Shown here: positions 1 to 18,902 of the stretch, piece after piece
How the letters are laid out: every line of letters begins with the position of its first letter
How positions within the stretch are numbered: the stretch's first letter is position 1
Made by a program: the position numbers and the translations under genes
Notes under the pieces: generated by a model
What the model was told of the DNA's origin: nothing
The model's input: the letters and a program-made list of their open reading frames with translations, nothing else
The model's database searches: none
Origin: a virus
IMG/VR virus record: IMGVR_UViG_3300022198_003143
Location: 1-39,017 of that record
Length of the DNA stretch: 39,017 nt
Direction: 5' to 3' (one strand)

Positions 1-2
1 AT

Positions 3-1571
3 CTTTCTTTTTCTGAGGCTATGTTTTTACTTCTCGGTGGGACGGGGGTGGGATATTCAGTCCAACGTCACCATATCGAACAATTACCAGAAATTCGTCA
101 TCCCAAAGCCGATAGGCAGCGTCGTCATCTTATTGCTGATTCTATTGAAGGTTGGGCTGATGCAGTAAAGGTTCTGATGGAATCTTATATTGGAACACGG
201 ACTTCAACTCCTGTGTTTGATTATTCTGATATTAGACCTAAGGGTTCTCTTTTGAAGACTTCTGGTGGAAAAGCGCCGGGGCCTCAACCTCTTCGTGAAT
301 GTCTTGTTAAGGTTGAAGGTATTCTTCAAAACATTACAGATGGCGAAAAGTTGAGTCCTATCCAAGCACACGATATTATGTGCCATATTGCTGATGCTGT
401 ATTAGCCGGTGGTATTCGTCGCGCTGCAATGATTAGCCTTTTCTCAGCAGATGATACATCTATGATTGCCTGCAAATCAGGCAATTGGTGGGAAAACAAT
501 CCTCAACGCGGTCGTGCAAACAACTCTGCGGTTATTATGCGACACCGAGTTACGAAGGAGTTTTTCATGGACCTTTGGAAGCGTATTCAAGCAAGTGGTT
601 CAGGAGAACCGGGAATTTATTTTAGTAACGACAAAGATTGGGGAACCAATCCTTGTTGTGAAATTGCTCTCAGGCCGTATCAATTCTGTAATCTAACAGA
701 AGTAAATGCTTCTGATGTTGAAGACCAAAGAGATTTAGAAGGTCGTGTAAAAGCCGCCGCTTTCCTCGGAACACTTCAGGCAGGATATACTGATTTCCAC
801 TACCTTCGTGAGATTTGGCGTAAGACAAGTGAGAAGGACGCTCTCTTAGGTGTTTCTATGACGGGTATTGCTTCTAACCGTGCCGAGCATTTGGACCTTG
901 AGATGGCCGCATTTGCCGCCAAATTAGAGAACAGTCGTGTAGCAAAACTCATCGGAATCAATGAGGCTGCGCGTGTAACTTGTGTTAAACCTGCGGGAAC
1001 AACTTCTCTTGTTCTTGGAACTTCTTCCGGTATTCACGCATGGCATGATGAATACTACATTCGTCGCATCCGTGTAGGAAAGAACGAAGCAATCTATGGT
1101 TATCTTCTTGAAAACCATCCTGAGTTGGTTGAAGATGAATTCTTTAACCCTACAGAACAGGCAGTAATTTCTGTGCCTCAGAAGGCCCCTGAAGGCGCAA
1201 TCACTCGTAGTGAGAATGTATTTCAACTTCTTGAGAGAATCAAGAACTTTAGCATTCGATGGGTTAGCAACGGGCATCGTGAAGGTTCTAACACTCACAA
1301 TGTTTCTGCTACTGTTTCCATTAAAGAAGATGAATGGGATAATGTAGGAGAATGGATGTGGATGAATAGACATTATTACAACGGTCTTTCTGTTCTTCCC
1401 TTTGATGGTGGGACATACACACAGGCTCCATTTGAAACGTGTGATAAGAAAACATACGAAGAATTGTCGAAGGCTCTCAAAGGTATTGACCTAACAAGAG
1501 TGATTGAATCAACAGATGAAACTAATCTGTCCGGTGAAATTGCTTGTGCCGGTGGTCTTTGCGAGATTTGA
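3..1571 (+). CDS. nrdJ: Class II (B12-dependent) ribonucleotide reductase, 3' part
   Basis: This is the C-terminal ~522 residues of an adenosylcobalamin-dependent ribonucleotide reductase, which makes deoxyribonucleotides from ribonucleotides. The frame is open to the left edge, so the true start lies outside; the ATG at 21 is internal. Visible signatures are the GGTGVGYSVQ loop near the left end, GGIRRAAM, the active-site NPCCEIAL at about residues 216-223 of the fragment, KPAGTTS, and a C-terminal Cys pair in CAGGLC just before the end. The closing CxxxxC and overall layout match the monomeric Lactobacillus-type RTPR (about 740 aa) better than NrdA or NrdD. Enzyme activity would depend on host or environmental B12. 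It is followed after 10 bases by the next gene and belongs with the dCMP-deaminase-like gene as a nucleotide-supply pair. The family is secure; monomeric type is inferred from the C-terminus. Confidence 0.95.
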   Translation, partial: LSFSEAMFLLLGGTGVGYSVQRHHIEQLPEIRHPKADRQRRHLIADSIEGWADAVKVLMESYIGTRTSTPVFDYSDIRPKGSLLKTSGGKAPGPQPLRECLVKVEGILQNITDGEKLSPIQAHDIMCHIADAVLAGGIRRAAMISLFSADDTSMIACKSGNWWENNPQRGRANNSAVIMRHRVTKEFFMDLWKRIQASGSGEPGIYFSNDKDWGTNPCCEIALRPYQFCNLTEVNASDVEDQRDLEGRVKAAAFLGTLQAGYTDFHYLREIWRKTSEKDALLGVSMTGIASNRAEHLDLEMAAFAAKLENSRVAKLIGINEAARVTCVKPAGTTSLVLGTSSGIHAWHDEYYIRRIRVGKNEAIYGYLLENHPELVEDEFFNPTEQAVISVPQKAPEGAITRSENVFQLLERIKNFSIRWVSNGHREGSNTHNVSATVSIKEDEWDNVGEWMWMNRHYYNGLSVLPFDGGTYTQAPFETCDKKTYEELSKALKGIDLTRVIESTDETNLSGEIACAGGLCEI

Positions 1572-1581
1572 GGTGATAATC

Positions 1582-1956
1582 ATGTTGTTCTCTTCTATGG
1601 AAGAGATGCAACTAGTTATTTTATCGTTAATCAAACAGGGCGAGTTGCCCTATTCAAAAAAGAAATTGTTGGTTGCATTTAATGCGAGTAAAGAATACTC
1701 TGATGAGAAAGACCAAATTTATAGAGTTTGGAAATCTCTTGAGCGTGAGTTGTGGAAAAATAAAACTGCTATTGATGAAGGCTTTCATACTTTCATTCGA
1801 CGTAAGATTGTCGAAATCAATGAAGCCTACAAGTATCATGATAAAAATTGCAAATCAAAATGTGAATTGTGCGAGGTTTTAGAATGTGTAAAAGAACTAG
1901 AATGTTTGGAGTCGCTCGAAAGAAAGCCAAAGATTGCGACTACATCTATAAGTTAG
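1582..1956 (+). CDS. Hypothetical protein, Cys-rich C-terminus
   Basis: A 124-residue protein that I do not recognise. The start at 1582 is chosen because AGGTGAT lies just upstream (1571-1577) and directly follows the reductase stop. The N-terminal two thirds are predicted helical and charged (Lys/Glu rich, around WKSLERELW). The last 35 residues contain several Cys (KCELCEVLEC and following), which could bind a metal. That Cys-rich tail overlaps the start of the deaminase gene by 73 bases in another frame, so its composition may partly reflect the constraint of the overlapping gene. No function is proposed. Confidence 0.6.
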   Translation: MLFSSMEEMQLVILSLIKQGELPYSKKKLLVAFNASKEYSDEKDQIYRVWKSLERELWKNKTAIDEGFHTFIRRKIVEINEAYKYHDKNCKSKCELCEVLECVKELECLESLERKPKIATTSIS

Positions 1957-2204
1957 GTGCAGTTATTGTTCATGGCGGAAAAATTCTTTCTATTGCGAGT
2001 AATACTCCAAATGGTCATGCTGAAGTCAATGCTATTAAACAGGCTTCTAAAACTGAAGGAGCAGATATTTACGTTGTTCGCCATACCCCCACAGGTTTGG
2101 CTATGTCGAAACCATGTAATGATTGCATGGTTGCAATACGTTCTGCGGGAATCCGTAGGATTTATTATACGTCCCGTAGTGGGCATCATAAGGTGATGGT
2201 ATGA
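1884..2204 (+). CDS. dCMP/cytidine deaminase-like protein
   Basis: A 106-residue zinc-dependent deaminase of the cytidine/deoxycytidylate deaminase superfamily. The zinc and proton-shuttle motif HAEVNAI is at residues 45-51 and PCNDC at 77-81, giving the usual His/Cys/Cys ligands and catalytic Glu47. The HAExNAI form points to dCMP deaminase, which would feed dUMP for thymidylate synthesis and fits its place after a ribonucleotide reductase. It is shorter than cellular dCMP deaminases (about 150-180 aa). The ATG at 1884 is preferred because GAGG sits 7 bases before it; a GTG at 1869 is an alternative. The substrate is inferred, and other small-base deaminations are possible. Confidence 0.85.
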   Translation: MCKRTRMFGVARKKAKDCDYIYKLGAVIVHGGKILSIASNTPNGHAEVNAIKQASKTEGADIYVVRHTPTGLAMSKPCNDCMVAIRSAGIRRIYYTSRSGHHKVMV

Positions 2205-2368
2205 CTGACTTTGACCCCGAATATACTAAAAACACAAGAGGCTACAAGAATAGAGTCGCTACACGTTGTCGTGTTTGCGGTGGACAACTTCTGATGGCAG
2301 AAGAAATTAAGATAGAAATGCACGAACATTGTGCAATGAAAGAAGATACAAATACATATTTGATGTGA
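2201..2368 (+). CDS. Small zinc-ribbon-like protein
   Basis: A 55-residue protein whose ATG overlaps the deaminase stop as ATGA. It has one CRVC pair near residues 23-26 and HEHC near 41-44, a possible C2/HC metal site. The preceding AAGGTGATGG serves as the ribosome-binding site. It is one of many very small Cys-containing proteins in this module. Function unknown; possibly a protein- or nucleic-acid-binding knuckle. Confidence 0.65.
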   Translation: MTDFDPEYTKNTRGYKNRVATRCRVCGGQLLMAEEIKIEMHEHCAMKEDTNTYLM

Positions 2369-2372
2369 TATT

Positions 2373-3458
2373 ATGACATATAAAATTGCAAAAGAACATG
2401 ATTTTAGCGACTATTATCAAACATACCTTCACCTTGAAGGGTGGGGTGAGATATCAAGTCGTATTCATTTTGATAGAAGTCACAAAGACCCTATTCATCA
2501 TGCTATTGTTTCAGATTTGAAGGAGACTCTTGGTTCTAGGAAATATAGTAAGTTGCGTGGCTCTTCTCAAGTAATGACTATTGGGGTATTACCTATAATT
2601 ATCGGTAAAAATGGGAATCGTTATTCTCTTAACGGTCAATATCTAAACTTGGCTCAAATCTGCAACGCGCTTGCTAGAGTTATCTATAAGAGTTGTTTTA
2701 CAGATAGCCAAATGGAACTCATGAAGGTTCTCATGAATTACATGAATATGCCTGAGAATGTAAGGTATGTTTTGGAAAATCGTTTCCCATACTTCTTTTA
2801 TGAAAACTTCACTAAAATTCAAGTGCGTTTGCAGGTCGCCCAAATTGGTGATGATTTACTTGCAATTGAGATTAGTGATGGAGTATGGGGTGAAATTTCC
2901 TTCAAGGACATGAATACATTCGCTAATTCTTACGTCAATGGTAAGAACCGTGGTTCTTGGAAAATGCTCTCACCGTATGATTTATATTCCCGTCTTCTGA
3001 GTAGGGAACCGTCGCCTTCCGACCTGAAGGTTATGACCGAGTTTTTGAAGCAGAATCGTCAGCAAGACATTGTTGAACAAAGAGCGCAAGAATTGATGAA
3101 TGACTTGGCTAGGCAATATCCAGACCAAATTAAATTGGGAATTGAAGATAAACTAATAGTTATGTATGTTCGTGGTCGTGGATATGATTGGAAACTAACG
3201 GAGCGAACATATAAGAATGAAATTCAAAATGTTAGCACCTTTGTTTATCAACCGAAATCAGGAGATGATACAGAAGCAAATTGGCGGGGTCCTATTTGTA
3301 TTGATAATATGGCTCGTGGCTCTTCCGTTGGCGACCAATTTGCAGCAAGAGCATTAGCCCTCATCAACGACACCATGACAACATCTAGAGTTAGCACAAT
3401 TGCAAGTTATTTGAATGCTAAACCAAATGAATATAGGATTGATTGGGATGAAGTGTGA
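2373..3458 (+). CDS. Conserved-looking hypothetical protein, 361 aa
   Basis: A 361-residue soluble protein with no family I can name. It is mixed alpha/beta, with no signal peptide, membrane segment, Cys cluster or P-loop. A mid-protein stretch (about residues 150-175) alternates hydrophobic residues like beta strands, and the C-terminal third contains RGRGYDWKLTERTY and a Gly/Ser-rich segment. It lies between nucleotide metabolism genes and TFB, and its end overlaps the TFB start by 11 bases, so it is expressed with the early genes. No function is proposed. Confidence 0.75.
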   Translation: MTYKIAKEHDFSDYYQTYLHLEGWGEISSRIHFDRSHKDPIHHAIVSDLKETLGSRKYSKLRGSSQVMTIGVLPIIIGKNGNRYSLNGQYLNLAQICNALARVIYKSCFTDSQMELMKVLMNYMNMPENVRYVLENRFPYFFYENFTKIQVRLQVAQIGDDLLAIEISDGVWGEISFKDMNTFANSYVNGKNRGSWKMLSPYDLYSRLLSREPSPSDLKVMTEFLKQNRQQDIVEQRAQELMNDLARQYPDQIKLGIEDKLIVMYVRGRGYDWKLTERTYKNEIQNVSTFVYQPKSGDDTEANWRGPICIDNMARGSSVGDQFAARALALINDTMTTSRVSTIASYLNAKPNEYRIDWDEV

Positions 3459-4287
3459 TGAATGTGGTTCAAGAGAGAATACCTTCGATGAGATTCTTGG
3501 CGAGCGAGTTTGTTCAGACTGTGGACTAGTTTTAGTCCAAGAAATGTTTGAAGAAACTGTATCAGCCAAGATGAGCGATGGGTCTTTCAGAACAAAGGAC
3601 CATTCTCTTGGTTCTGTAACTTCTTTTCGTTCTTCTGCTCAACGACATTCAACGACTTCCCATGAGAGAACACTTGAAAACGGATATCGTATGGTCCGTA
3701 TGGTGTTTAATTCTCTTGGGCTTGTCTTTGATTTGAATGAAAGAATGGAACAGGTATATCGTGATTTATATTCTAAAGGTATTTTTCGAGGTGCAACTTT
3801 AGAAACAAGAGCAACTGCAGTTGTTTATTTCTGTCTAAAGGAAAACAGAACACCTGTTCCTCTTGATATTGTTTGTGGCGAGTTTGATATTCAGTCTAAA
3901 CTAGTTAAAAAATTAGTCAGAAAGATATCTAAGATTTACCAAAACGTAGTCATTCGAAACGATGATGGTTCTTTTGAGATTCAAAGAATCTGCACTTTGT
4001 TGACAAATGACCCTGCTTTTTTGGGGCATTGTTTGCAGACATATGAATTCTTTGAGAAAGTAATGGTTCAATCTCTAGAAAATAAACGAAAAACACACAA
4101 CTCAGCGATTGTGTTTCTAACTGCCAAGATTCACAACTACCCATTTACTTCTAAGTCTATTGCTAATACTGATGGAGTAAATGTATCGTCTAATGGAATA
4201 TTAGTCACAGGCAGAAGGCTTCTTTCTTTGATTGGCCTTAAAAGAATCGAAGAAATAATTGGAAAAGATTTGGAGAAATTATTATGA
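3448..4287 (+). CDS. tfb: Transcription initiation factor B (TFB/TFIIB homologue)
   Basis: A 279-residue archaeal-type TFB, the factor that bridges TBP-bound promoters and RNA polymerase. An N-terminal zinc ribbon has Cys at residues 3, 6, 22 and 25 (CDEC...CSDC). A linker containing RTKDHSLGS would be the B-reader/linker region, and helical cyclin-fold segments follow (RATAVVYFCLKENRTPVPL is cyclin-like). The second cyclin repeat is divergent. The length is close to that of cellular TFBs (about 300 aa). The start at 3448 puts the zinc ribbon at the N-terminus, as in the family. The virus presumably uses it to redirect host RNA polymerase to its own promoters; that is inference. Confidence 0.9.
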   Translation: MKCDECGSRENTFDEILGERVCSDCGLVLVQEMFEETVSAKMSDGSFRTKDHSLGSVTSFRSSAQRHSTTSHERTLENGYRMVRMVFNSLGLVFDLNERMEQVYRDLYSKGIFRGATLETRATAVVYFCLKENRTPVPLDIVCGEFDIQSKLVKKLVRKISKIYQNVVIRNDDGSFEIQRICTLLTNDPAFLGHCLQTYEFFEKVMVQSLENKRKTHNSAIVFLTAKIHNYPFTSKSIANTDGVNVSSNGILVTGRRLLSLIGLKRIEEIIGKDLEKLL

Positions 4288-4451
4288 CAAATGAATGTGA
4301 ACATGAATGGAAATATGTGGATTCATATCCTGTTGAAGATTGGATAGGATATGGTATTGATGCCGTATTGATTGAATATGGAATAGCCGAGTATTATTGC
4401 CCAAAATGTCATGAAACAATGGAACTAGAAATTCAGGAGGAAGACGAATGA
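4284..4451 (+). CDS. Small zinc-binding protein
   Basis: A 55-residue acidic protein starting in an ATGA overlap with the TFB stop. It has CEHEW at residues 5-9 and CPKCHE at 39-44, arranged like a four-ligand Cys/His zinc site, a pattern common in small phage proteins of unknown role. The C-terminus EEDE is encoded by GAGGAAGACGAATGA, which also supplies the Shine-Dalgarno sequence of the next gene. Function unknown. Confidence 0.7.
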   Translation: MTNECEHEWKYVDSYPVEDWIGYGIDAVLIEYGIAEYYCPKCHETMELEIQEEDE

Positions 4452-4798
4452 AAGAAACTATTGAAATTAATATCCCATGTGGAAAACATGGATTGTTTAT
4501 TAATGTTAGCGAAGATACACACAAATACTGTGAAGAATGTATAGTTGAAAGAATCCAAAAAAATATCGAGGGGTATTCTTTGGACACAATCGCAAGATGG
4601 ATTTATAAGAATTCAACAATTACAAATAATTGGTGGACAGTTTATAGGTATGCTCAACTTTATCAAATAGAAGAGATGGATGGAGTTATCTTTAATCCGG
4701 AGTTTTATGCTCCTATTCTCGAGGATAAAAAGGAAAGACTAGAACGATTAGAAAAGGGAGAATATCTAACAAAAGAATATCATAAGGAGGAATTTTGA
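4448..4798 (+). CDS. Hypothetical zinc-binding protein
   Basis: A 116-residue protein beginning in an ATGA overlap. The N-terminal 35 residues carry PCGKHG and KYCEECI, a likely Cys/His metal site (Cys11, His14, Cys28, Cys31). The rest is helical and charged, ending KEYHKEEF, where AAGGAGG provides the ribosome-binding site for the E1-like gene that follows immediately. It may be an accessory factor of the neighbouring E1/JAMM genes, but nothing beyond position supports that. Confidence 0.65.
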   Translation: MKETIEINIPCGKHGLFINVSEDTHKYCEECIVERIQKNIEGYSLDTIARWIYKNSTITNNWWTVYRYAQLYQIEEMDGVIFNPEFYAPILEDKKERLERLEKGEYLTKEYHKEEF

Positions 4799-5353
4799 AT
4801 GAAGAAAATTTTAGTAATTGGAGCAGGCGGCATTGGAAGTTTTCTAATCCCGCTTTTAGACAGACTTGGAACGTATGCGATTACATCGGCTGACCCTGAT
4901 AAGGTAGAAGAAAAGAACCTACTTTATCAGAATTATCTTCCTTTGCACGTTGGATATAATAAGTCATTGTGTATGAGGGACCAACATAACAATGTTGAAG
5001 CAAGCCCCTACCCTATTCTAACTGAAAAACAAATGGAAGGCTATGACCTCGTTGTGTCTTGTGTTGATAATCTTGGAGTTAGGCGAACCCTTTACAACAC
5101 CTCCTTTAAATGGTTGGACCTTCGCGCACAGGGTAGGAATGCTGCACTTATCTCAAACAAAGCAGACCCAGCACTTTACGACACATTACTCGCAGGCCCA
5201 GAAGGTTCTTTTTCATGCCAAGCAGGAGATTGGGACGGTTCAGCAGCAGAAGTGAATCTAATGAACGTAATGATTGCAGGAGCGGGCGCACAATGGATTC
5301 AGAAGTATTTCAATGGTGAAGAAACCAAGTCGTTTATGACATTTAATATTTGA
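4799..5353 (+). CDS. E1/ThiF/MoeB-like adenylyltransferase
   Basis: A 184-residue Rossmann-fold protein of the ThiF/MoeB/E1 superfamily, which adenylates the C-terminus of ubiquitin-like or sulfur-carrier proteins. The nucleotide loop GAGGIGS is at residues 8-14, and DPDKVEEKNLLYQN matches the family's D-x-D-x-V-x-x-x-NLxRQ element, with Tyr in place of the usual Arg. GYNKS gives the conserved Lys, and SCVDNLGVRR matches the D-x-x-x-x-R helix. The sequence near FSCQAG holds a candidate catalytic Cys. It is shorter than MoeB (about 250 aa) and lacks the CxxC zinc pairs. A JAMM protease is encoded three genes downstream. The family is clear; the carrier protein is not identified. Confidence 0.88.
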   Translation: MKKILVIGAGGIGSFLIPLLDRLGTYAITSADPDKVEEKNLLYQNYLPLHVGYNKSLCMRDQHNNVEASPYPILTEKQMEGYDLVVSCVDNLGVRRTLYNTSFKWLDLRAQGRNAALISNKADPALYDTLLAGPEGSFSCQAGDWDGSAAEVNLMNVMIAGAGAQWIQKYFNGEETKSFMTFNI

Positions 5354-5362
5354 GGCGATAAT

Positions 5363-5476
5363 ATGAAAAACGAAAAAAGATTTTGCAGAAACTGTGGAAG
5401 AGGAATGTGCAGAAATAAGCCAGATTCTAGATGCACACATTGCAAACGTTTTGGAGGGAAACAAAATGAACAATGA
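5363..5476 (+). CDS. 37-aa zinc-ribbon mini-protein
   Basis: A very small basic protein with two knuckles, CRNC (residues 8-11) and CTHC (24-27), plus Cys16, ending RFGGKQNEQ. GAGGCGAT at 5352-5359 supplies its ribosome-binding site. Its 3' end holds the GGAGGG used by the next gene, whose ATG lies 11 bases before this stop. The Cys spacing is that of a rubredoxin-like or zinc-ribbon fold. Function unknown; it lies inside the E1/JAMM cluster. Confidence 0.65.
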   Translation: MKNEKRFCRNCGRGMCRNKPDSRCTHCKRFGGKQNEQ

Positions 5477-6218
5477 CATTTATCAGTATGTGAAAATTAG
5501 AAGAGACAATGGGATGCATTGGGGAGAAATTTCTCGATTGCTCTATTTAACCTTCAATGTAAGATACTCGGTAATGAATCTTAAAATGGATTACCAAAAC
5601 CACGGAAGTGAAACTATGAAGAGAAGATATGTAAAACTTGATGAATATAAGAATTTCATCTTAGAAAGTAAAAAAGAGGGAATGTCCTATAAAGATATTG
5701 CAGATGCAATTGAAGCAATTGAAGGACAACGCCCATCAGATAGTGGAATCAGAAGATTGGTAAAACTTGCAGCAACGACTGAAACTGTTCTTCTAGAAGA
5801 ACCCGTTGAAGCCAAAATCGTATTGTCTGATTTCAATGACTTAGAAGAAAGTGAAAAGGAATACGCAAACACACGTTGTCGTTGGTCCTATCAGGACGAA
5901 TTGATGGTGCTTGTTGACTTTTACAATCTTTCAGTTGATGAGGCGCGTGAGAAGTTTCAGCGTCCATATTACGCGATTGCTAAGAGACTTGAACAAATCA
6001 ACGACCTTACAGAACCCTATCATTCTGAACTGCTTATGGAGGCCGCTCGCATCATTGAAACACGGAAGGCATCAGTCGTCAATGAGGCCCCTATGACCCG
6101 TAGAGAACGCCGCAGAATGCGCCGAATCGCACGGAAGGCAGCAAGGGTCCAGAAGCGTTTAGACCGCCTCTCGACGCGCTATGGGGTGCGTTTTGAAGAA
6201 GTCAAGGATAGTGAATAA
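5466..6218 (+). CDS. SANT/Myb-like HTH DNA-binding protein
   Basis: A 250-residue protein with at least two helix-turn-helix-like segments. Residues about 60-95 (YKNFILESKKEGMSYKDIAD and on) look like a homeodomain-type HTH. Residues about 138-178 (RWSYQDELMVLVDFYNLSVD and on, then FQRPYYAIAKRL) fit the Myb/SANT pattern of W, acidic helix, turn and R-P-x-x-A-I-x-x-R-L. The C-terminal 45 residues are strongly basic (TRRERRRMRRIARKAAR), suiting nucleic-acid contact. The start at 5466 has GGAGGG seven bases upstream; an upstream start would lie inside the zinc mini-gene. It is probably a viral transcription or genome-organising factor. Its place between the E1-like and JAMM genes is notable but unexplained. 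Confidence 0.75.
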   Translation: MNNDIYQYVKIRRDNGMHWGEISRLLYLTFNVRYSVMNLKMDYQNHGSETMKRRYVKLDEYKNFILESKKEGMSYKDIADAIEAIEGQRPSDSGIRRLVKLAATTETVLLEEPVEAKIVLSDFNDLEESEKEYANTRCRWSYQDELMVLVDFYNLSVDEAREKFQRPYYAIAKRLEQINDLTEPYHSELLMEAARIIETRKASVVNEAPMTRRERRRMRRIARKAARVQKRLDRLSTRYGVRFEEVKDSE

Positions 6219-6219
6219 A

Positions 6220-6768
6220 ATGGGAAAGATTAAAGATTGGGCATTGAGCCGAGGACTGTTTGATATGATTAAAGATGATTCTCGTGATGACTCTCAAGTT
6301 TCTGCTTGGGAGGAAGAAATGGAGATTGCAGACTTTATTCTCCAATCAACGTTTAGGGAATGTTCAGAAGACGACACAGAATTTTTCTGTTCTGAACTAA
6401 ACGAAGCAATTTGGGAATTATCAACAGGACTATTCGGTGGAAACGAAGTCCAAGTGGTTATTGACGGAAACAACCAATTATTCTGGTCTGTCGGTAATCC
6501 GGGCTATGTGGATTTTCCTGCACCACCTATCGGTATGAAATTACCGATTAAGTGTTGGATTCACACACACCCGTTTGGCTCGGCATATTTTTCAGGAACA
6601 GATTGGGGAACAATCAACACTTGGCGTCCTTATCTCAATCGTGCTGAGGTTTTGGGTAATAATCAAATCGGTATTTGGGCCGGTGAAAAAGGTGAGGTTT
6701 ATACTCACGTCAGTCTAACTGAGGACTATAACTTAGTAAAGAAAGTAATTGGAGTTGAAGAAGAATGA
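6220..6768 (+). CDS. JAMM/MPN+ (JAB) family metalloprotease
   Basis: A 182-residue zinc isopeptidase-like protein. The JAMM motif is complete: H115-T-H117, seven residues, S125, two residues, D128 (HTHPFGSAYFSGTD). A conserved Glu is expected upstream; the EEEMEIADFI helix or the EAIWELSTG region could supply it. A Trp precedes the His pair, as in many JAB proteins. Members remove ubiquitin-like modifiers or mature their C-termini, and in phages some act in tail assembly. This one lies in the replication module near an E1-like gene, not in the tail cluster, which favours the first role. The ATG at 6220 is used because it follows the upstream stop by one base and AAGGAT precedes it. Confidence 0.88.
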   Translation: MGKIKDWALSRGLFDMIKDDSRDDSQVSAWEEEMEIADFILQSTFRECSEDDTEFFCSELNEAIWELSTGLFGGNEVQVVIDGNNQLFWSVGNPGYVDFPAPPIGMKLPIKCWIHTHPFGSAYFSGTDWGTINTWRPYLNRAEVLGNNQIGIWAGEKGEVYTHVSLTEDYNLVKKVIGVEEE

Positions 6769-7148
6769 AGAAATTTGAAAGAAAGCAACAGGAAAGTAAG
6801 TTTGGTTTTAACATTGATTATAGTAAACCTGCCGGTCCTCCTGTAACAAGGAGAAACTGTGCGGTTCAAACTGTAATCCACAAAGACGGAACACAAGAAC
6901 TTGTGCCGGTGATGCCGATTCTTGTTCGTGAACGTCTTGCTGAACATCAAAGGAACCACCCAAACGATATTCCTAAGAAGTCCACAGGAAAAATGCGTAT
7001 TCACGGTAATGCTCGTAATGATGCTAAGTCTGGAAAGCGCGACCGTAAGTTGGCGGAGTTTTATAAGACTCACGTTTATACTTGGGTTACTCCAACAAAG
7101 CGGGCTTGGGTAAAGGCTGCAACAAATGATGTGGAGGAAGAAGAGTGA
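6765..7148 (+). CDS. Hypothetical basic protein
   Basis: A 127-residue protein, start in an ATGA overlap with the JAMM gene. It is Lys/Arg/His-rich in the middle (KKSTGKMRIHGNARNDAKSG and on) and ends in VEEEE. No membrane segment or known motif was found. The GTG start of the GroES-like gene overlaps its stop. A nucleic-acid-binding role is possible from the charge, nothing more. Confidence 0.65.
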   Translation: MKKFERKQQESKFGFNIDYSKPAGPPVTRRNCAVQTVIHKDGTQELVPVMPILVRERLAEHQRNHPNDIPKKSTGKMRIHGNARNDAKSGKRDRKLAEFYKTHVYTWVTPTKRAWVKAATNDVEEEE

Positions 7149-7375
7149 GGCCATTTGGCAAGTATGTAGTAATTCGCTTATTGAAGAGTCAATCTTCATC
7201 AGGCATCGTCGCTAATCATGCTAATATCGGAAAAATCCTCGCGGCAACAGAGTTCAATAATTCTGTTGGTGAAACTGTTTTATTCTCTTCTCGTAAGGAA
7301 TATGAACAGCGTGGTGATATTGTGTTTGTTCCGTCTGAAGATATTCTCTGTGTATTGGATGAAGGTGATTACTGA
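7145..7375 (+). CDS. groES: GroES-like co-chaperonin (Cpn10)
   Basis: A 76-residue Cpn10-type protein that would cap a GroEL ring. It starts with the family's MRPFGKYVVIRL (compare RPL-x-DRVIVKR), then SSSGIV for the mobile loop, GKILAAT, VGETVLF, and the closing VPSEDILCVLDE that matches GroES S-E-x-DILA-x-VE. It is about 20 residues shorter than E. coli GroES and the mobile loop is short, as in phage cochaperonins such as T4 gp31. The start is GTG in a GTGA overlap; GGAGGAAGAAGA precedes it. GroEL lies 460 bases downstream behind three mini-genes. Confidence 0.82.
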   Translation: MRPFGKYVVIRLLKSQSSSGIVANHANIGKILAATEFNNSVGETVLFSSRKEYEQRGDIVFVPSEDILCVLDEGDY

Positions 7376-7458
7376 TGTGTGGAGCAATCCCTGTTCAATG
7401 TTCATCCTGCGGCCAATGGTGGAGAATTGTGCCATGTAACTGTGAGGGAAAACAATGA
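7375..7458 (+). CDS. 27-aa CxxC mini-protein
   Basis: A 27-residue open frame beginning in a TGATG overlap with the GroES stop and ending in ATGA overlap with the next gene. It contains CSSC and CNC, so four Cys in 15 residues (residues 9, 12, 21, 23) could hold one zinc. The tight overlaps at both ends are the main evidence that it is translated. Function unknown. Confidence 0.5.
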   Translation: MCGAIPVQCSSCGQWWRIVPCNCEGKQ

Positions 7459-7613
7459 AGACTATTTGTGCTTGTTGCGATATTGTTGCTAAGTTTGTAT
7501 ATGAAGACTTAGCAACAGGTCCACAATCGTTCTGTTCTGAGCGTTGTTTTTGTATCTATACGGCTCTTCCGTATAAGGGTGAAGGATATTACACAGGAGA
7601 GTGTGAAGTTTGA
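7455..7613 (+). CDS. 52-aa Cys-rich mini-protein
   Basis: A 52-residue protein with CACC at residues 5-8 and CSERCFC at 27-33, a treble-clef or MYM/FCS-like zinc pattern (compare FCS-x-x-C). It is preceded by TGTGAGGG and overlaps the preceding stop by ATGA. The following gene begins with TTG across its stop. Function unknown; it lies between GroES and GroEL. Confidence 0.6.
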   Translation: MKTICACCDIVAKFVYEDLATGPQSFCSERCFCIYTALPYKGEGYYTGECEV

Positions 7614-7837
7614 AATTTATTTTTAGGTTAAAAAAAGCAATTGCTAGAATTTTGATTGGATATTTTATTATCGTTAATAGTCAATTTTCTGTAGAAGCAT
7701 ATTCGGACTTTTCCGCTACTGAGCATATCACTTTAAATACTGTTAGGCTTGGTTGGGTAATTATAGGTGTTGCTATTTTTGATTTTATACTTACCCCTAT
7801 TTTAGAATCCCTTGTTTTTAAGGAGGAAGAAGAATGA
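7610..7837 (+). CDS. Small membrane protein
   Basis: A 75-residue protein with two hydrophobic segments: about residues 10-24 (IARILIGYFIIVN) and about 49-66 (LGWVIIGVAIFDFILTPI). A short basic N-terminus suggests the N-end inside. The start is TTG, supported by AGGAGAG seven bases upstream and a TTGA overlap with the previous stop. It ends FKEEEE, where AAGGAGG forms the GroEL ribosome-binding site. It could be a holin-like or membrane-anchoring protein, but its position in the early module argues against a simple lysis role. Confidence 0.65.
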   Translation: MKFIFRLKKAIARILIGYFIIVNSQFSVEAYSDFSATEHITLNTVRLGWVIIGVAIFDFILTPILESLVFKEEEE

Positions 7838-9339
7838 TTACTTATGAAACTGAAGTGAAAGAGAAACTAATGAAAGGTATTAACATCGTTGCTGATGCAG
7901 TATCGCCTACACTTGGCCCACAAGCCAAAACAGCGATTTTGCAAGGAAACCCGCCCGTCATTATCAATGATGGTGTTACTATCACAAAGTATGTTTCTCA
8001 CGAAGACCCGTATGTTCAAATGGGTATTCAAATGGTTCAAAATCTTGCGGCTCAGGCTCAAGATAAATCAGGTGATGGAACGACAACTGCGTGTATTCTA
8101 GCAAGAGAAATCTGTAAAGGTATCTTTGAAGTTTATGATGAGATTCGAAACATTCGTGAATTTCAAAAGAAGTTAGACGAAGTGCAAACCTATGTCCTAA
8201 CTCAAATTCTTGAGAAGTCAAATCCGATTGAAGAAGATGAAGTTTATGAAGTTGCTTTCATTTCCTCTAACAATGACGCTCATGTTGCTGAATTGATTAC
8301 TGAAGCGGTGAAGAAAGTAGGAAAAGATGGCGTGATTACAGTTGAAGAAGGACGAACACACGAAACACGTCTTCTTCTCCGTGAAGGTGTTAGACTCTAT
8401 GAAGGTTATATGAGTCATCTTATGGCTAACAACGAAAACGGAACTTGTGAGTTTGAGAATCCTCTAATCTTTATGTCTAACTTGGCCTTTAGGAACTTCC
8501 AAGACCTCATGCCTATGCTTGAAATTGCTGCTAATCAATCTCGACCTCTCCTTATCATGTGTAAGGGAATAGAAGGTTCAGCAATGAACAACTTGATTAT
8601 GAATATCCTTCAAAAGACTGTTCAGGTAGCCGCCATTCTTTCACCAAACTTCGGTGATGCTCAACTTGACGAATTGGCTGACCTTCAATCATTGGTTGGT
8701 GGTCGAATCTTTAATTCCGAAAGCAAAGACGACGCATCCTTAGTTTCTATTGATGAGTTTGGTTCATGTGAACGGTTGATTGTCGGCAAGGAATACACAA
8801 CTATCATTGGTGGTGAAGGAGATGTTGAAGACAGAATCGCTATTCTTCGAGCATTGGCTGAAGATATGAAGGGCTACGATAAGAACAGGATTAAATCGCG
8901 TATTGCTCGCCTGAAGGGTGGTGTCGCTACAATTCAAGTCGGTGCTTCCTCAACTATGGAAATGCGTGAAACAAAAGAAAGGCTTGATGATGCTCTAAAC
9001 GCAACACGCGCCGCTCTTGCTGAAGGAATTGTTCTCGGTGGCGGTATGACCTATGCAGAAATTGGCTTTTCTTTGGATGCCTCTAACGTAGTCGAGCGAA
9101 TTATTCGGTCTGCTTTGCTCACGCCTCTTTTGGTGCTTATGCAAAACTCGCTTGTTACTGATGTATCGCCAATGAACGCCTTCGATGATGGCGGCTTTAA
9201 CGCTCTTACAGGTGAGTTTGGGACATTGGAGAATGTTTATGACCCTGCTCGCGTTGCGCGTGAATCTTTCTTGGCTGCTATGTCCATTGGTAGGTTATTC
9301 CTTACTACTTCTGTGGCGGTGTTGGTTGATGGTGAGTAA
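7834..9339 (+). CDS. groEL: GroEL-type group I chaperonin (Hsp60)
   Basis: A 501-residue bacterial-type chaperonin, an ATP-driven folding ring, not the archaeal thermosome type. GDGTTTA is at residues 80-86, followed by KVGKDGVITVEEG, the apical GYMSHLMANN segment, RIARLKGGVATIQVG, DDALNATRAALAEG and GGGMTY, each matching GroEL in order. It lacks the GGM-rich tail and is about 45 residues shorter than E. coli GroEL. A strong AAGGAGG lies seven bases before the ATG. With the GroES-like gene it forms a complete virus-coded folding pair, probably for capsid, tail or polymerase proteins. The group I identity is seen in the sequence; the clients are inferred. Confidence 0.96.
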   Translation: MITYETEVKEKLMKGINIVADAVSPTLGPQAKTAILQGNPPVIINDGVTITKYVSHEDPYVQMGIQMVQNLAAQAQDKSGDGTTTACILAREICKGIFEVYDEIRNIREFQKKLDEVQTYVLTQILEKSNPIEEDEVYEVAFISSNNDAHVAELITEAVKKVGKDGVITVEEGRTHETRLLLREGVRLYEGYMSHLMANNENGTCEFENPLIFMSNLAFRNFQDLMPMLEIAANQSRPLLIMCKGIEGSAMNNLIMNILQKTVQVAAILSPNFGDAQLDELADLQSLVGGRIFNSESKDDASLVSIDEFGSCERLIVGKEYTTIIGGEGDVEDRIAILRALAEDMKGYDKNRIKSRIARLKGGVATIQVGASSTMEMRETKERLDDALNATRAALAEGIVLGGGMTYAEIGFSLDASNVVERIIRSALLTPLLVLMQNSLVTDVSPMNAFDDGGFNALTGEFGTLENVYDPARVARESFLAAMSIGRLFLTTSVAVLVDGE

Positions 9340-9724
9340 TAGAGCAATAACAGTAAACTTGCCTGCACCACATGATGCAGAAATAATTTGTCCTATTTGC
9401 GAAGGAAATCGCTGTAAGGTTTGCAATAAAACAGGAAAGATTACCTTTACTCTAAGCCCAAAGATTCCAATTCAAAGAGCCCACATTATCAAATATGTTC
9501 ACGATAATTTGAATGATGTGGCTTTTGAATTAACTCGAATGTATGGACTTGTTCCAGATATTGAGACAAAGGAAGTAGTTCAAGTAGGAGATGGGCAGTT
9601 TGAAATTGTTCAAGTATCTTCTATTGGTGGTTCTTGTTGGATTGCTAACAGGTTAGACGAATTGGAAGCACCACGCTATTTTAGGACATGGAAAGACCTT
9701 GAGAAATTCAAGGAGGAAATTTGA
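9329..9724 (+). CDS. DnaJ-type zinc-finger-containing small protein
   Basis: A 131-residue protein overlapping the GroEL end by 11 bases. Near residues 22-36 it has CPICEGNRCKVCNKTG, a CxxC pair and a second CxxC pair of the type found in the DnaJ zinc domain (CxxCxGxG). The rest is alpha/beta, with ITFTLSPKIPI after the zinc motif and a C-terminal helix rich in Glu/Lys. No J-domain HPD is present, so this is not a full DnaJ. It may help the chaperonin or simply be a zinc protein. The ATG at 9329 is chosen for minimal overlap. Confidence 0.7.
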   Translation: MVSNRAITVNLPAPHDAEIICPICEGNRCKVCNKTGKITFTLSPKIPIQRAHIIKYVHDNLNDVAFELTRMYGLVPDIETKEVVQVGDGQFEIVQVSSIGGSCWIANRLDELEAPRYFRTWKDLEKFKEEI

Positions 9725-9930
9725 TGACAAGCGATGATTTTGAAATGATTGGGAGTATTCCCAGAAACTCCACCGATGTAGTAAAGGTCCGAAAGGGAAA
9801 TTACTATAATATTGATGTAATTGATATTCGGTGGTTTAAAGACGATAAGATTTCCCGTAAAGGTATTCGTCTTAACCGGACAGAAGCCCGTATGCTTCTA
9901 AACCTTCTAAGGAGGGAACTAGATGATTAA
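9724..9930 (+). CDS. Hypothetical protein, 68 aa
   Basis: A small charged protein starting at an ATG that shares its A with the previous stop (TGATG), with AAGGAGG at 9711-9717. The sequence has beta-strand-like stretches (YYNIDVIDIRWF) and a C-terminal amphipathic helix (EARMLLNLLRRELDD), a layout seen in small phage single-domain proteins with a strand-strand-helix form. The end encodes AAGGAGGG for the next gene. Function unknown. Confidence 0.65.
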   Translation: MTSDDFEMIGSIPRNSTDVVKVRKGNYYNIDVIDIRWFKDDKISRKGIRLNRTEARMLLNLLRRELDD

Positions 9931-10195
9931 GCAAAGAATTAGTGAAATTCAGGCTAAAAAGGCTGTAAGAAATGCAAATAAAAATAGGCAGTATGGACAC
10001 GGAGCAATCCCAAGATTTGTTAAACGAGCATCAGAAATCGTAGATTTATTTGCTAAGATTGTTGAAAAGAATATGGAAGTCCCTGCCGGTCAGGGTCTTC
10101 GTGGCTCACGGGTTCAACCATATAATGTTGATATTGCATATGTGCAAGCATATGACGCACTACGCCGTGTATTAGAAGGAGAGGAAGAAGAATGA
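9923..10195 (+). CDS. Hypothetical protein, 90 aa
   Basis: A 90-residue protein, basic N-terminus and helical throughout, ending GEEEE. AAGGAGGG is just upstream, and the first bases overlap the previous gene by 8. It contains QYGHGAIPRFVKRASEI, which I cannot place in a family. The 3' end GAGGAAGAAGAATGA serves the next gene. Function unknown. Confidence 0.65.
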   Translation: MIKQRISEIQAKKAVRNANKNRQYGHGAIPRFVKRASEIVDLFAKIVEKNMEVPAGQGLRGSRVQPYNVDIAYVQAYDALRRVLEGEEEE

Positions 10196-10560
10196 ACACT
10201 AACAAACTTTATTTGGTGACTAAGAACGATAAGCAATATGCTTCTTGGGCAAAGCAAATGGGAAACAAACTAGGAAAGAATACTCTTTTGTTTGACCATT
10301 TTCAATCCCAAGTTGGTGAAATGAGATATGCAAATGAATTGGCTAAGGCTAGTTTCATTTGTTATTGGGAAATCCAAACGAGTAATAGCCTTGCGCGTCT
10401 TGCTCCTGCAATAACTCAAGCAACTCTCATTCAAATGACCCATCGTTTCTTAGAACAAGAAAAGTTTGAAGAAGTGGAAGTTACTTCCCAACTCATTTCT
10501 AACTTTTTGCGACTACTTGGGAGGCTTGATGATGAAGTATCAGAAGATGAAGAAGAGTGA
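10192..10560 (+). CDS. Hypothetical protein, 122 aa
   Basis: A 122-residue acidic protein in ATGA overlap with its predecessor. It has an alpha/beta N-terminus (KLYLVTKNDKQYASWAKQMG) and a helical C-terminal half ending in an acidic tail. No motif was recognised. It sits directly upstream of the ligase region. Function unknown. Confidence 0.65.
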   Translation: MNTNKLYLVTKNDKQYASWAKQMGNKLGKNTLLFDHFQSQVGEMRYANELAKASFICYWEIQTSNSLARLAPAITQATLIQMTHRFLEQEKFEEVEVTSQLISNFLRLLGRLDDEVSEDEEE

Positions 10561-10780
10561 ATGGTTAATTTTGGCTAAAATCTTACACTATGAATACGTG
10601 GCTAAATCTATTACAGGCCGAGATACAATGTGTGAAATGATTAGAAACTTAATTTATACAGTAAATACAGAGGTGAATTTTAATGACATGGAAAATGATG
10701 TGCAATCTGCTGGAAGCGACGGACAATCTGCTACCAAGCAAACAAATCTCAATGATTTCAAGAGAAATGGGGAATTTTGA
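10532..10780 (+). CDS. Hypothetical protein overlapping the ligase start
   Basis: An 82-residue frame. GGGAGG lies seven bases before this ATG; an ATG at 10547 is an alternative. The first 50 residues (KKSEWLILAKILHYEYVAKS and on) look like normal protein. The last 32 are Asn/Asp/Gln/Ser rich and overlap the ligase N-terminus by 98 bases in another frame. Either both are translated or the ligase begins later. Function unknown. Confidence 0.5.
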   Translation: MKYQKMKKSEWLILAKILHYEYVAKSITGRDTMCEMIRNLIYTVNTEVNFNDMENDVQSAGSDGQSATKQTNLNDFKRNGEF

Positions 10781-12209
10781 AAACAAGAGTAGTCTTTTGG
10801 CTATTCTTGCTATGGAATACCCGTCAAACAACATAGGACTTGCGAGGGCAAAGAAGTGGGTAGCAAATGTATTTGATATCCACGATGAAGAGATTGAAGG
10901 AGATTATGTTGTCTATGAAGACATGGGCGACGTGGTTTATTTCTTAGATTCTTCAGCAGAATCAAACGGAGAAACTTCAATCAATACTATTCTTCGTATT
11001 CTTGGCTCTGATTGCTCAGGTGTAGGTTCAGATTCTTACAGGGTATTTGAAGGTTTAATGAATTCCCTTTCTTCTCTTGAGCGGAAGTGGTTCATGCGTT
11101 ATTGGCTACGAACCCCTCGTAATGGTATTAACAAGGGAAATGTAGTTAAGATGCTAGCAAAGCATTTTAATAAGAAGGTAACTGATGTGAAGAAGCACGT
11201 TTCTTTTAACACTATTGAGAATGTTTGTCAATACTATATGGGTAATATGGAACCCCCTATGGTTCTGAATCACGGAACATTTGTTGCTCCTATGTTAGCA
11301 AAATCTGTTCCTCTTAACAAGTGGCCTAAGAATAAAATTGTGGATTACAAGTATGACGGTAATCGTTACCAAATTCATAAGAAAGGAGACAATGTAATTA
11401 TCTTCAACCGCAAGGGTTCAATTACTACACAACAATATCCTGATGTTGTTGAGATTATTCGTGCTTATGATTGTGATAACGCTATCTTTGACGGTGAAAT
11501 CTATCCGGTGAACACAGATGGTTCACCTGCGCCACATCAGAACTTAGGAACCCGCGTTCATTCTAAGGACCATGCAGAAGCGGTTAGAAGATGCCCTGTG
11601 GCTTGGGTAATCTTCGATTGCTTGAAGATGAACGGTGAAGTCGTAATGGACCGCACATACACGCATAGGCTTCAGGTTATGCAAGGCTTAGGCAACCAAG
11701 CCCACCGACAACTTGAGGGAGATGCAATCGCTTTCTATCATCAGGCAATTAATGACGGTTTCGAGGGCATTATCGTAAAAGATGCGAATGCCAAATATCA
11801 GCCCGGAAAACGTTCTGTTTCTTGGGTTAAACATAAACCACCACGAATAGAGTTAGATGTTGTAATTGTTGCAGGTGCATATGGTGAAGGAAAACGCTCA
11901 GGTGTGTTTGGAACCTATGAGATTGCAGTTAAGTCAGGTGGTTTATATATTGTGGTCGGTTCGGTTGGAACCGGCTTCTCAGATGCAGATTTGATTAGAT
12001 TAACTAATGATTTGCGTAAGAACATCGAATCAGTAAAGAATGGAAAGTATCAATTCCTTCCGAGAATCGTTCTCGAAGTTAGTGCTGATTTGATTACTCG
12101 TGATGCTAAAGGAAACATTGGTCTTCGATTTCCTAGAGTAACGAGAATCCGTGATGATAAGTTTCCTCAGGACATTAATACAATTGAAGACGTTATGGAG
12201 ATGATGTGA
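10683..12209 (+). CDS. lig: ATP-dependent DNA ligase (archaeal/eukaryal Lig1 type)
   Basis: A 508-residue nick-sealing ligase. An N-terminal DNA-binding helical domain (about 1-190) is followed by the adenylation domain with motif I KYDGNR, adenylated Lys223. FDGEI is motif III, EGIIVKD motif IV and SWVKHKP motif V. A C-terminal OB domain with a RxxRxRxDK-like motif VI (RVTRIRDDK) ends near residue 493. The length is close to archaeal Lig1 (about 560 aa). GAGGTG seven bases before the ATG supports this start. It would join Okazaki fragments made by the neighbouring primase, polymerase and clamp genes. Confidence 0.95.
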   Translation: MTWKMMCNLLEATDNLLPSKQISMISREMGNFENKSSLLAILAMEYPSNNIGLARAKKWVANVFDIHDEEIEGDYVVYEDMGDVVYFLDSSAESNGETSINTILRILGSDCSGVGSDSYRVFEGLMNSLSSLERKWFMRYWLRTPRNGINKGNVVKMLAKHFNKKVTDVKKHVSFNTIENVCQYYMGNMEPPMVLNHGTFVAPMLAKSVPLNKWPKNKIVDYKYDGNRYQIHKKGDNVIIFNRKGSITTQQYPDVVEIIRAYDCDNAIFDGEIYPVNTDGSPAPHQNLGTRVHSKDHAEAVRRCPVAWVIFDCLKMNGEVVMDRTYTHRLQVMQGLGNQAHRQLEGDAIAFYHQAINDGFEGIIVKDANAKYQPGKRSVSWVKHKPPRIELDVVIVAGAYGEGKRSGVFGTYEIAVKSGGLYIVVGSVGTGFSDADLIRLTNDLRKNIESVKNGKYQFLPRIVLEVSADLITRDAKGNIGLRFPRVTRIRDDKFPQDINTIEDVMEMM

Positions 12210-12538
12210 TGACTAGAACATATAAATACTTTTTAGATAACCAAAGTGCAGCAATGGAAATTGAAAAGATGAAGAAGGATGAAGTAGGTAAGGCTATCAA
12301 AATTACCTATGATAGAATTCGTTCTCAATTCTATATTCTCCGTAATCTTCATTCTCGCTTGGGTGATATCAGGAATGCACCTCCTACAGATTCAAAGAGG
12401 AAAATTGCAAAACTCTTGAAAATCAAGTCAACCAATAACCGTGAAGAGAGATTGATGGCTATTATTGACGCGGCAAGGACTTTCATTGAAACAGACAATT
12501 TTGATGCAGCAAAAGCGATTTTGAAACAGGAGGTTTAA
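12209..12538 (+). CDS. Hypothetical helical protein
   Basis: A 109-residue, basic, mostly helical protein. The ATG at 12209 shares a base with the ligase stop (TGATG) and has GGAG upstream; a GTG at 12206 is less likely. Visible segments are VGKAIKITYDRIRSQFYILR and a C-terminal helix (FDAAKAILKQEV). No motif was recognised. It lies between the ligase and the histone-fold gene and could bind nucleic acid, by charge only. Confidence 0.65.
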   Translation: MTRTYKYFLDNQSAAMEIEKMKKDEVGKAIKITYDRIRSQFYILRNLHSRLGDIRNAPPTDSKRKIAKLLKIKSTNNREERLMAIIDAARTFIETDNFDAAKAILKQEV

Positions 12539-12540
12539 AC

Positions 12541-12996
12541 ATGATTAAAGAAGGACAGTTTACTATTATTGAAGGAAAAACCTTTCAAGTCGTTAGAATT
12601 GAAGATGAATTTGCCTATCTTCACAACGTCGAAACCTATATGGGTCGCCCAAGAAAGATGCTTCTGAGCCGAGTCCCATACTTCGATGAGAGCGGGCAAC
12701 TGATTGTTCCAGAAATCAAGAAAACGCAGATTCCTAGGAGGAAACTAATTTCAAAAATAAATATTAGAGAGATTGCTAAAGAGAAAACAGATAAACAGGT
12801 TTCAAAGAAAGCAATAATGTTTATTGAAGAGCAGGTCCGTTTCTTGTGTGAATATCTTATTATCAATGCCGATGAAACTGCTGATAAACATAATCATACA
12901 AGAATTGGACCTGAACACGTTAGTCACGTCCAATTTCCTGAACTCAATACTGAAGTATGCATTGACCACAAAAAATATATTGAGGATGGTCTTTGA
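12541..12996 (+). CDS. Histone-fold protein with N-terminal extension
   Basis: A 151-residue protein. The first ~70 residues are a small beta-rich domain. Residues about 76-130 align without gaps to archaeal histones such as HMfB. Helix 1 is IREIAKEKTDKQ, the loop VSKKA matches the V-S-x-x-A of histones, a long helix 2 follows (FIEEQVRFLCEYLIINADET), and then TRIGPEHV for the second loop and helix 3 start, matching KTIKAEDI. About 20 residues follow. Histone folds dimerise and wrap DNA; some instead serve in transcription complexes. AGGAGG upstream supports the ATG. The fold call rests on the pattern; DNA wrapping is inferred. Confidence 0.8.
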   Translation: MIKEGQFTIIEGKTFQVVRIEDEFAYLHNVETYMGRPRKMLLSRVPYFDESGQLIVPEIKKTQIPRRKLISKINIREIAKEKTDKQVSKKAIMFIEEQVRFLCEYLIINADETADKHNHTRIGPEHVSHVQFPELNTEVCIDHKKYIEDGL

Positions 12997-13353
12997 ATGT
13001 ATCAAGATAGCCTCATCCAAGAATGGTTAACCCGCTTTGATGATTTAACATCGTTTAGTTTTATGGTTTATTTTGAATTAGATGAACCAACTTTACAGTT
13101 TTTAGCAAAGGGTTTAGTGGCGAGGTTGAATTTTATTGGTGATGAAGGTCTTTTTGCTGTTGTTCATGACACAGTTGATGAAGAACTAGCAAAGGCATTA
13201 GGGACATATAGAGGAACATCCTTTACTATTATTTTTCCGGGAATGTGTGAAGATTTAGAACCATTGATTGAAGACACTATTTTGGAAGGACTCAAATTTA
13301 TTAGAGTTAAGGCTGAGTATTTAGGTATTACAAAGGTGAATGATTATGTATAA
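12997..13353 (+). CDS. Hypothetical protein, 118 aa
   Basis: A 118-residue acidic alpha/beta protein that starts directly after the histone-fold stop. It contains SFSFMVYFELDEPTLQFLAK, GLFAVVHDT and TSFTIIFPGMCEDLEPL, alternating strands and helices, with no catalytic motif that I can identify. It overlaps the LAGLIDADG-like gene by 8 bases. Function unknown. Confidence 0.65.
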   Translation: MYQDSLIQEWLTRFDDLTSFSFMVYFELDEPTLQFLAKGLVARLNFIGDEGLFAVVHDTVDEELAKALGTYRGTSFTIIFPGMCEDLEPLIEDTILEGLKFIRVKAEYLGITKVNDYV

Positions 13354-13741
13354 TAGAGATATGCTTACAGGTATCTATCTTGCTCATTCTAAGATTGATT
13401 TTCACATTGAGCATTCTAACACAGTTAGCATTGGCTACACAGTTAGAATCCGTGTAAATCTTAGAGCCGAGTTAGATTTCTTGGAAGGAGTAAAGCGAAG
13501 CCTTTTTCAACATGGAATTGAAAGTGTTCTAAAAGAAAAGGAAAACAAGACACGTCCCAAGCCAATTCTAAAAATTGGTGGGATTAAGAATCTGTATCTT
13601 CTTACAGAGATGGTATCAGATTTACCTGATTCTAAAAATGAATGGTCAAACTTTAGAAAGGCCGTTGAAATTATCAGTAACAAAGAGCATTTAGAATTGG
13701 AAGGAATTGAAAAATTAATGGAACTCAAAGGTGTGCTATAA
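13346..13741 (+). CDS. LAGLIDADG homing-endonuclease-like protein, degenerate
   Basis: A 131-residue single-domain protein resembling LAGLIDADG endonucleases. The N-terminal helix LTGIYLAHSK sits where LAGLIDADGS is expected and is followed by strands (FHIEH, YTVRIRVNL) and DFLEGVKRSLFQHGI. The C-terminal part has the typical LKIGGIKNLYLLTEM, FRKAVEIISNKEHLELEGIE and LMELKG. The acidic catalytic residue at the end of the LAGLIDADG helix is replaced by His, so cleavage is probably lost. GGTGA six bases upstream supports the ATG at 13346. It is free-standing with no intron or intein, so it may be a domesticated DNA-binding protein. Confidence 0.7.
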   Translation: MYNRDMLTGIYLAHSKIDFHIEHSNTVSIGYTVRIRVNLRAELDFLEGVKRSLFQHGIESVLKEKENKTRPKPILKIGGIKNLYLLTEMVSDLPDSKNEWSNFRKAVEIISNKEHLELEGIEKLMELKGVL

Positions 13742-14586: not shown

Positions 14587-14591
14587 TTATT

Positions 14592-18901: not shown

Positions 18902-18902
18902 A

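Follow-up and report, generated by a model that had tools for sequence, protein, structure and literature searches.

A probable ubiquitin-like conjugation and deconjugation pathway encoded by magroviruses, with related gene sets in Poseidoniales

The genes described here, carried by viruses that infect one of the most abundant archaeal groups of the ocean, probably constitute a complete virus-encoded pathway of ubiquitin-like conjugation and deconjugation, a reading for which there are as yet no activity data. They lie within and immediately beside the window, by which we mean the whole stretch of DNA analysed, a 39,017-base virus record (IMGVR_UViG_3300022198_003143) with a gene layout of the magrovirus type. 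An initial annotation had proposed a ubiquitin-like pathway from the proximity of an E1-like gene and a JAMM protease gene, an idea which would have been abandoned had related genomes carried the two genes independently or had the E1-like protein been incapable of binding ATP. Neither proved to be the case, and both a carrier and an E2-like candidate have been found. On balance we incline to the broader view that Poseidoniales possess an undescribed ubiquitin-like protein (Ubl) system comprising poly-Ubl precursors, a new E2-like family, an E1 and a JAMM protease, that magroviruses carry among their core genes a complete and dedicated copy of it which tags proteins during infection, and that parts have been exchanged between the two. 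If this is true, an archaeal virus would count among its core genes a whole ubiquitin-like cascade of carrier, E1, probable E2 and protease, conserved in all magroviruses examined with enough flanking sequence, while the matching host system has poly-Ubl genes whose head-to-tail repeats recall eukaryotic polyubiquitin. The viral use of such tags would then be open to direct test, with a bearing on the origin of ubiquitin signalling.

Genes of the window and their surroundings

The features of the window needed for the argument are listed below; gene names in the window other than those of Pfam-scanned genes were assigned by inspection.

21-1571, plus strand: ribonucleotide reductase (RNR), 3' part, truncated by the start of the window; the Ubl gene lies just upstream
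2373-3458, plus strand: probable E2-like protein of 361 aa; the candidate catalytic residue is Cys309 (codon 3297-3299), within GPICIDN
3415-4287, plus strand: transcription factor B (TFB), located between the E2-like and E1 genes; Pfam TFIIB zinc ribbon 1.7e-7, position conserved
4799-5353, plus strand: E1-like adenylyltransferase of 184 aa with the ThiF fold, NLxRQ being replaced by NLxYQ; Pfam ThiF 2.2e-13
5363-5476, plus strand: Cys-rich ORF, 37 aa; weak Pfam matches only
5466-6218, plus strand: HTH/SANT-like protein, between E1 and JAMM; variable presence
6214-6768, plus strand: JAMM/MPN+ metalloprotease, 184 aa from the ATG at 6214; E78, H117, H119, S127, D130

The plus strand of the window carries the genes for RNR, TFB, chaperonin and GroES, ligase, RFC, PCNA and PolB and the minus strand those for tail proteins, a layout which bears out the earlier placing of the E1-like and JAMM genes in a replication module, distant from the tail genes. 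The TFB gene is a neighbour outside the pathway. Two further proteins had been singled out between E1 and JAMM. The 37-aa 'zinc protein' is a real ORF, but it is conserved nowhere beyond a near-identical contig, and is either accessory or unrelated; for the same reason we ruled it out as a RING/E3 component. The SANT-like protein does lie between the two genes, but only in some relatives and without a Pfam match above cut-off.

Elsewhere in the window a short GroES-like ORF (7145-7375) is found shortly upstream of a Cpn60/GroEL-type chaperonin gene (7834-9339), and PolB is seemingly split into two ORFs (18894-20567 and 20973-21869), as reported for the PolB-NTD and PolB-CTD of Aoguangviridae. 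Many plus-strand ORFs encode proteins ending in EEE, with a GAGGAAGAATGA-like ribosome-binding sequence overlapping the next start codon. We do not regard these ends as carrier tails, since they are more simply attributed to a Shine-Dalgarno-like GGAGGA or GAAGAAGAATGA placed over the start of the following gene, itself an inference from sequence.

Components of the putative cascade

The initial annotation, finding no carrier, had allowed that one might be encoded outside the window or supplied by a host SAMP-like protein. The former is the case, and the carrier is not a host SAMP but is virus-encoded on a near-identical contig (L001, IMGVR_UViG_3300007960_000175), which shares 99.98% identity with the window over positions 1-15350. 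Gene clustering of seven long related records yielded a conserved protein of 66-69 aa adjoining RNR; the window begins within RNR, and the Ubl gene therefore falls just outside it, at window coordinates -986 to -783 (L001:4216-4419, plus strand), 783 bp to the left of base 1. On L001 this ORF, which precedes RNR, encodes 68 aa ending in TPAIVGGAF (MIRLRILNDTGHTEVMLSAEEIIEQIDTHPTHWLFINGEMVSREDVATINWDTIENVDLTPAIVGGAF). All 77 distinct copies have a C-terminal GG followed by no residue (11 copies), one (9), two (55) or three (2), of variable identity, and to judge from these sequences they are like unprocessed ubiquitin-like precursors. The AF2 model (pLDDT 85) has the order E-E-H-E-E-H-E of the beta-grasp, and the best folds retrieved by Foldseek from the PDB are mostly ubiquitin, SUMO-like proteins, ThiS, MoaD and TtuB (probability 0.97 for TtuB), with nothing below an E value of 1e-3, as the protein is small. 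Searches with the sequence gave no credible match in the PDB, and among Pfam matches only a weak one to ThiS in 3 of 37 members, Prok_Ub not being among them. The criteria of a ubiquitin-like modifier, a beta-grasp fold and a processable C-terminal GG, are thus met by the predicted structure and the sequence, while conjugation itself is inferred. Because 2-5 of the approximately 57-76 small ORFs in each genome end in GG, this feature was counted only together with conservation and fold, and small ORFs were not accepted as carriers on GG alone. Directly after the Ubl gene (L001:4420-4560) there are two strong hairpins rich in GC, and a T-run follows one of them; the arrangement has the appearance of a terminator, so that Ubl may be transcribed separately from the downstream genes.

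The identification of an E1/ThiF-like protein stands, its Pfam ThiF match being above the curated cut-off. The family profile matches ThiF, UBA1, UBA5, MccB and NAE in the PDB, and the best PDB match of the single sequence is Cap2. The set of ATP-site elements expected on a ThiF fold (GxGGxG, DxD, N..Q, K and D-N), which defines the superfamily, is present, and GAGGIGS, D32-x-D34, N40, Q44, K55, D90-N91 and R95 vary little or not at all among 54 relatives, as well as in alignment A1; C140 is near-invariant among the aligned relatives. This conservation speaks against an E1-like protein unable to bind ATP. The initial annotation had overlooked that the NLxRQ motif is changed in the window to NLLYQ. 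At the Arg position of the alignment 49 of 54 sequences have Tyr, three have Asn and only two distant phage rows retain Arg, and the E1s of Poseidoniales hosts read NLGHQ or NLxHQ. Since this Arg is common but not universal in the E1/ThiF superfamily, where membership is decided by fold, the viral Tyr and the host His do not exclude these proteins from it, but catalysis may differ.

The JAMM protease had been called complete, and its motif HTHPFGSAYFSGTD (HxH-x7-S-x2-D) is indeed intact and occurs only once among 165 six-frame ORFs of at least 60 aa; E78, H117, H119, S127 and D130 are invariant in 37 relatives. An alternative in-frame ATG at 6181 would give a protein of 195 aa. The single sequence reaches Pfam Prok-JAB only below threshold (0.017), and the family profile matches the deubiquitinases AMSH-LP, AMSH and Sst2 as well as Caldiarchaeum Rpn11 (6e-5 to 1.5e-3). 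Armadillo matches of the single sequence in the PDB search were dismissed as a repeat artefact.

The earlier statement that the window lacks an E2 is probably wrong. The E2-like profile finds matches in 156 loci, one in each, and Cys309 in GPICIDN is invariant among 98 distinct sequences (56 of 56 in alignment A4). The AF2 model (pLDDT 90) shows a helix (230-248) followed by four strands, a short strand with Cys309 at its end, and then helices, a predicted order of elements that fits the UBC-like fold around this residue. Foldseek matches to this model, which include UbcH5c, the bacterial E2 BubB and tandem-RWD kinetochore proteins, are weak (all E > 0.04), and an hhalign comparison with PRTRC-B, which is Prok-E2_D by Pfam, aligned only ten columns, exactly at the PRTRC-B Cys motif. 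Viral and host profiles are related over the Cys domain (96.5% probability, 7.7e-10), and the host homologues lie beside Ubl, E1 and JAMM. Since no sequence match to a known E2 was obtained in Pfam (including UBC) or the PDB, the assignment remains tentative; the protein is probably E2-like, but its role as an E2 is inferred, and it is the weakest link of the pathway.

Linkage in viruses and in host chromosomes

Searches of IMG/VR gave 13 E1 loci and 63 JAMM loci. Wherever a JAMM locus had enough flank, E1 and JAMM were both found, arranged on the same strand as TFB-E1-JAMM; E1 is missing from four JAMM loci (L016, L061, L072 and L076), all of which are cut by a contig end, and the distant E1 loci L012 and L013 are not magrovirus-like. 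Nearly every long related record has one JAMM copy, the exception being a 184-kb record with two. Likewise, Ubl is found in 54 of 54 E1 loci having at least 7.5 kb upstream, and E1 together with JAMM in 73 of 73 Ubl loci having at least 8.5 kb downstream. In the survey of related viral genomes E1 and JAMM were never found apart. No E3 was identified, nor any RING partner.

Taken on its own this co-occurrence is weak evidence, because the core genes of one virus order co-occur in any case. The genes could on these grounds be unrelated members of a replication module, with JAMM a maturation protease and E1 some other adenylyltransferase, the more so as in viruses Ubl and the E2-like gene do not adjoin E1 and JAMM. 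That this is very improbable follows from host chromosomes, where these families are organised in tight operons, occur in fusions of several kinds, and are gained or lost together across genomes. When 84,980 species genomes were scanned once for matches to the E1 profile, E1s approximately 30-35% identical to the viral one were found in MAGs of Poseidoniales, the group linked to magroviruses in the literature (PMC10768690, PMC12999244). One operon (L211), beside genes for enolase, an aminotransferase and host RNR, has the order E2-like-Ubl-E1-JAMM, which is repeated in L212, L213 and L300; fusions comprise Ubl-Ubl-E1 (L281, L285), E1-JAMM (L283, L292, L298) and Ubl with an E2-like domain (L279; E 0.0016 against the host E2-like profile). 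Of 146 Poseidoniales genomes 66 have Ubl and 71 have JAMM, with 61 having the two together (p 3e-24); related Ubl and/or JAMM are thus present in about half. The E2-like protein was found in 20 genomes, every one of them among the 76 that carry Ubl or JAMM (p 5e-7). These p-values are inflated by MAG incompleteness and shared ancestry. Host operons, fusions and phyletic profiles therefore provide independent support for a shared pathway.

Hosts also possess stand-alone genes of 2-4 tandem Ubls, and 68 of 74 host Ubl repeats (some loci overlap) end in GG. In L265, L284, L288 and L290 three to four repeats follow each other with GG before the next, as in polyubiquitin, and two Poseidoniales loci (L263, L291) have QAG or LAG instead. 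Related E1s occur in Methanosarcinales/Methanoperedens contigs as well (L208, L215), with no JAMM, Ubl or E2-like match nearby.

One question then is whether the Ubl is transferred to proteins or serves sulfur chemistry, with E1 producing a Ubl thiocarboxylate in the manner of ThiS, MoaD, TtuB or CysO to supply tRNA thiolation or cysteine synthesis, while JAMM trims the carrier. The MoaD/ThiS-like C-terminus, the presence of TtuB and ThiS among the best fold matches, the occasional Pfam ThiS match and the precedent of bacterial JAB-E1-ThiS sulfur clusters (PMC1779556) would all suit such a role. The viral E1, however, has no rhodanese domain, genes for rhodanese and for ATP_bind_3 (the TtuA/NcsA-type ATPase) were found in none of 15 viral records, with controls positive, and conjugation accounts better for the repeated Ubls of hosts and for an E2-like partner that is fused to Ubl or encoded next to it. 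We consequently disfavour the sulfur-carrier role as unlikely and infer protein transfer.

In the conjugation pathway so inferred, which would be made from the replication gene cluster, JAMM would cut off the 0-3 residues that follow GG in the viral Ubl (66-69 aa), and the Gly so exposed would be adenylated by the E1-like enzyme with ATP. The E2-like protein would then pass Ubl on, probably as a thioester on its Cys309, to lysines in proteins of the virus or of the host, from which JAMM could remove it again. The whole of this chemistry is inferred, as are the substrates.

Parts of the system appear to move between virus and host. In a host chromosome (L299 10276-12756) with host-type flanking genes, an operon of Ubl, JAMM, an ICLD protein and E1 contains a JAMM which groups within the clade of viral JAMMs (100/100; closest relative 96/78), from which we deduce such movement. 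The Ubl of this operon ends in MPRIVFG, with a single G. In the E1 tree, which is poorly rooted and has long branches on crAss-like rows, the host E1s form one clade (99/96) with the viral E1s outside, so that there is no sign of recent capture and a recent host origin of the viral E1 is unsupported. Two contigs of a 'Maricaulis' MAG (L202, L203), which encode a magrovirus-like E1 (about 1e-81), JAMM and the E2-like protein, are likely mis-binned.

Bacterial Ubl systems can act against phages. The viral set might accordingly be directed chiefly at the host system, JAMM stripping host tags while viral Ubl and E1 compete, as counter-defence or hijack; the prevalence of related genes in Poseidoniales and the virus-type JAMM in a host operon are compatible with this. 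We nevertheless hold it to be improbable, because all viruses keep a full set with intact catalytic residues and not just JAMM, viral and host E1s occupy separate clades, many hosts were seen without any such system, and PADLOC gave no match for JAMM, Ubl or the E2-like protein.

Relation to known systems

The ICTV profiles of the magrovirus families do not mention a ubiquitin-like pathway, and for the terms searched none was found in PMC10160649. No relevant paper joining Poseidoniales and ubiquitin was found in a limited open-access literature without preprints; the UCH and RING genes that a 2014 survey described from one single-cell genome of MGII make up a different set (PMC4327156).

Several known systems share features with the proposed viral pathway. 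The haloarchaeal SAMP/UbaA/HvJAMM1 system has an archaeal Ubl with a MoaD-like GG end, an E1 and a JAMM protease. It operates without an E2, whereas magroviruses have an E2-like partner and GG tails that need trimming, and their E1 matches UbaA only weakly (3e-5). Reversible modification involving the JAMM protease is described for haloarchaea in PMC4443979. CBASS Cap2/Cap3 and Bil combine E1, E2 and JAB, but the magrovirus set does not fit CBASS type II: its E1 is a separate short protein of 184 aa without an E2 domain, E1-E2 matches in PADLOC are weak only, and JAMM is unmatched there. No cGAS-like enzyme was seen beside the magrovirus set. The eukaryote-like operons of Caldiarchaeum and Asgard archaea are archaeal Ub-E2-E1-JAMM sets, and the magrovirus JAMM profile touches Caldiarchaeum Rpn11; they differ in that the magrovirus E2-like protein is unmatched by Pfam UBC, no RING partner was found and the Ubl is of MoaD style.

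Among phages, crAss-like phages and Salmonella phage Arash have adjacent JAB and ThiF genes (L079 4256-6654 in crAss001, L082 1519-4539 in Arash), in crAss-like phages beside genes for DNA primase and uracil-DNA glycosylase. Only the E1 is related (25-30% identity), no convincing homologue of the magrovirus Ubl or E2-like protein being recognisable in INPHARED phages. In Arash a weak Prok-E2_D-like protein is encoded upstream of the pair.

Bacterial Ubl-JAB-E1-E2 operons on mobile elements were described by Iyer et al. 2006 (PMC1779556), whose row 6d resembles, by our own equation, the PRTRC plasmid cassette (ParB, E, C = Prok_Ub, F, B = Prok-E2_D, A = JAB, and ThiF). The kinship with PRTRC suggested by the initial annotation is real for E1 but does not extend to strict membership. 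The magrovirus E1 is closest to TIGR03736 (PRTRC_ThiF; 4.4e-11, and hhalign 97.5% to PRTRC ThiF) yet fails its cut-off (42.6 against 144.75 bits), JAMM has no match to TIGR03735 (PRTRC protein A), and PRTRC-C, which unlike the magrovirus Ubl does not end in GG, was rejected as a carrier homologue for want of a profile match. The magrovirus genes are, moreover, dispersed. The ICI motif of the E2-like protein resembles GRICIG of PRTRC-B, and in bringing together a Ubl, an E1, an E2-like protein and a JAB protease on a mobile replicon PRTRC is the nearest known relative of the magrovirus set.
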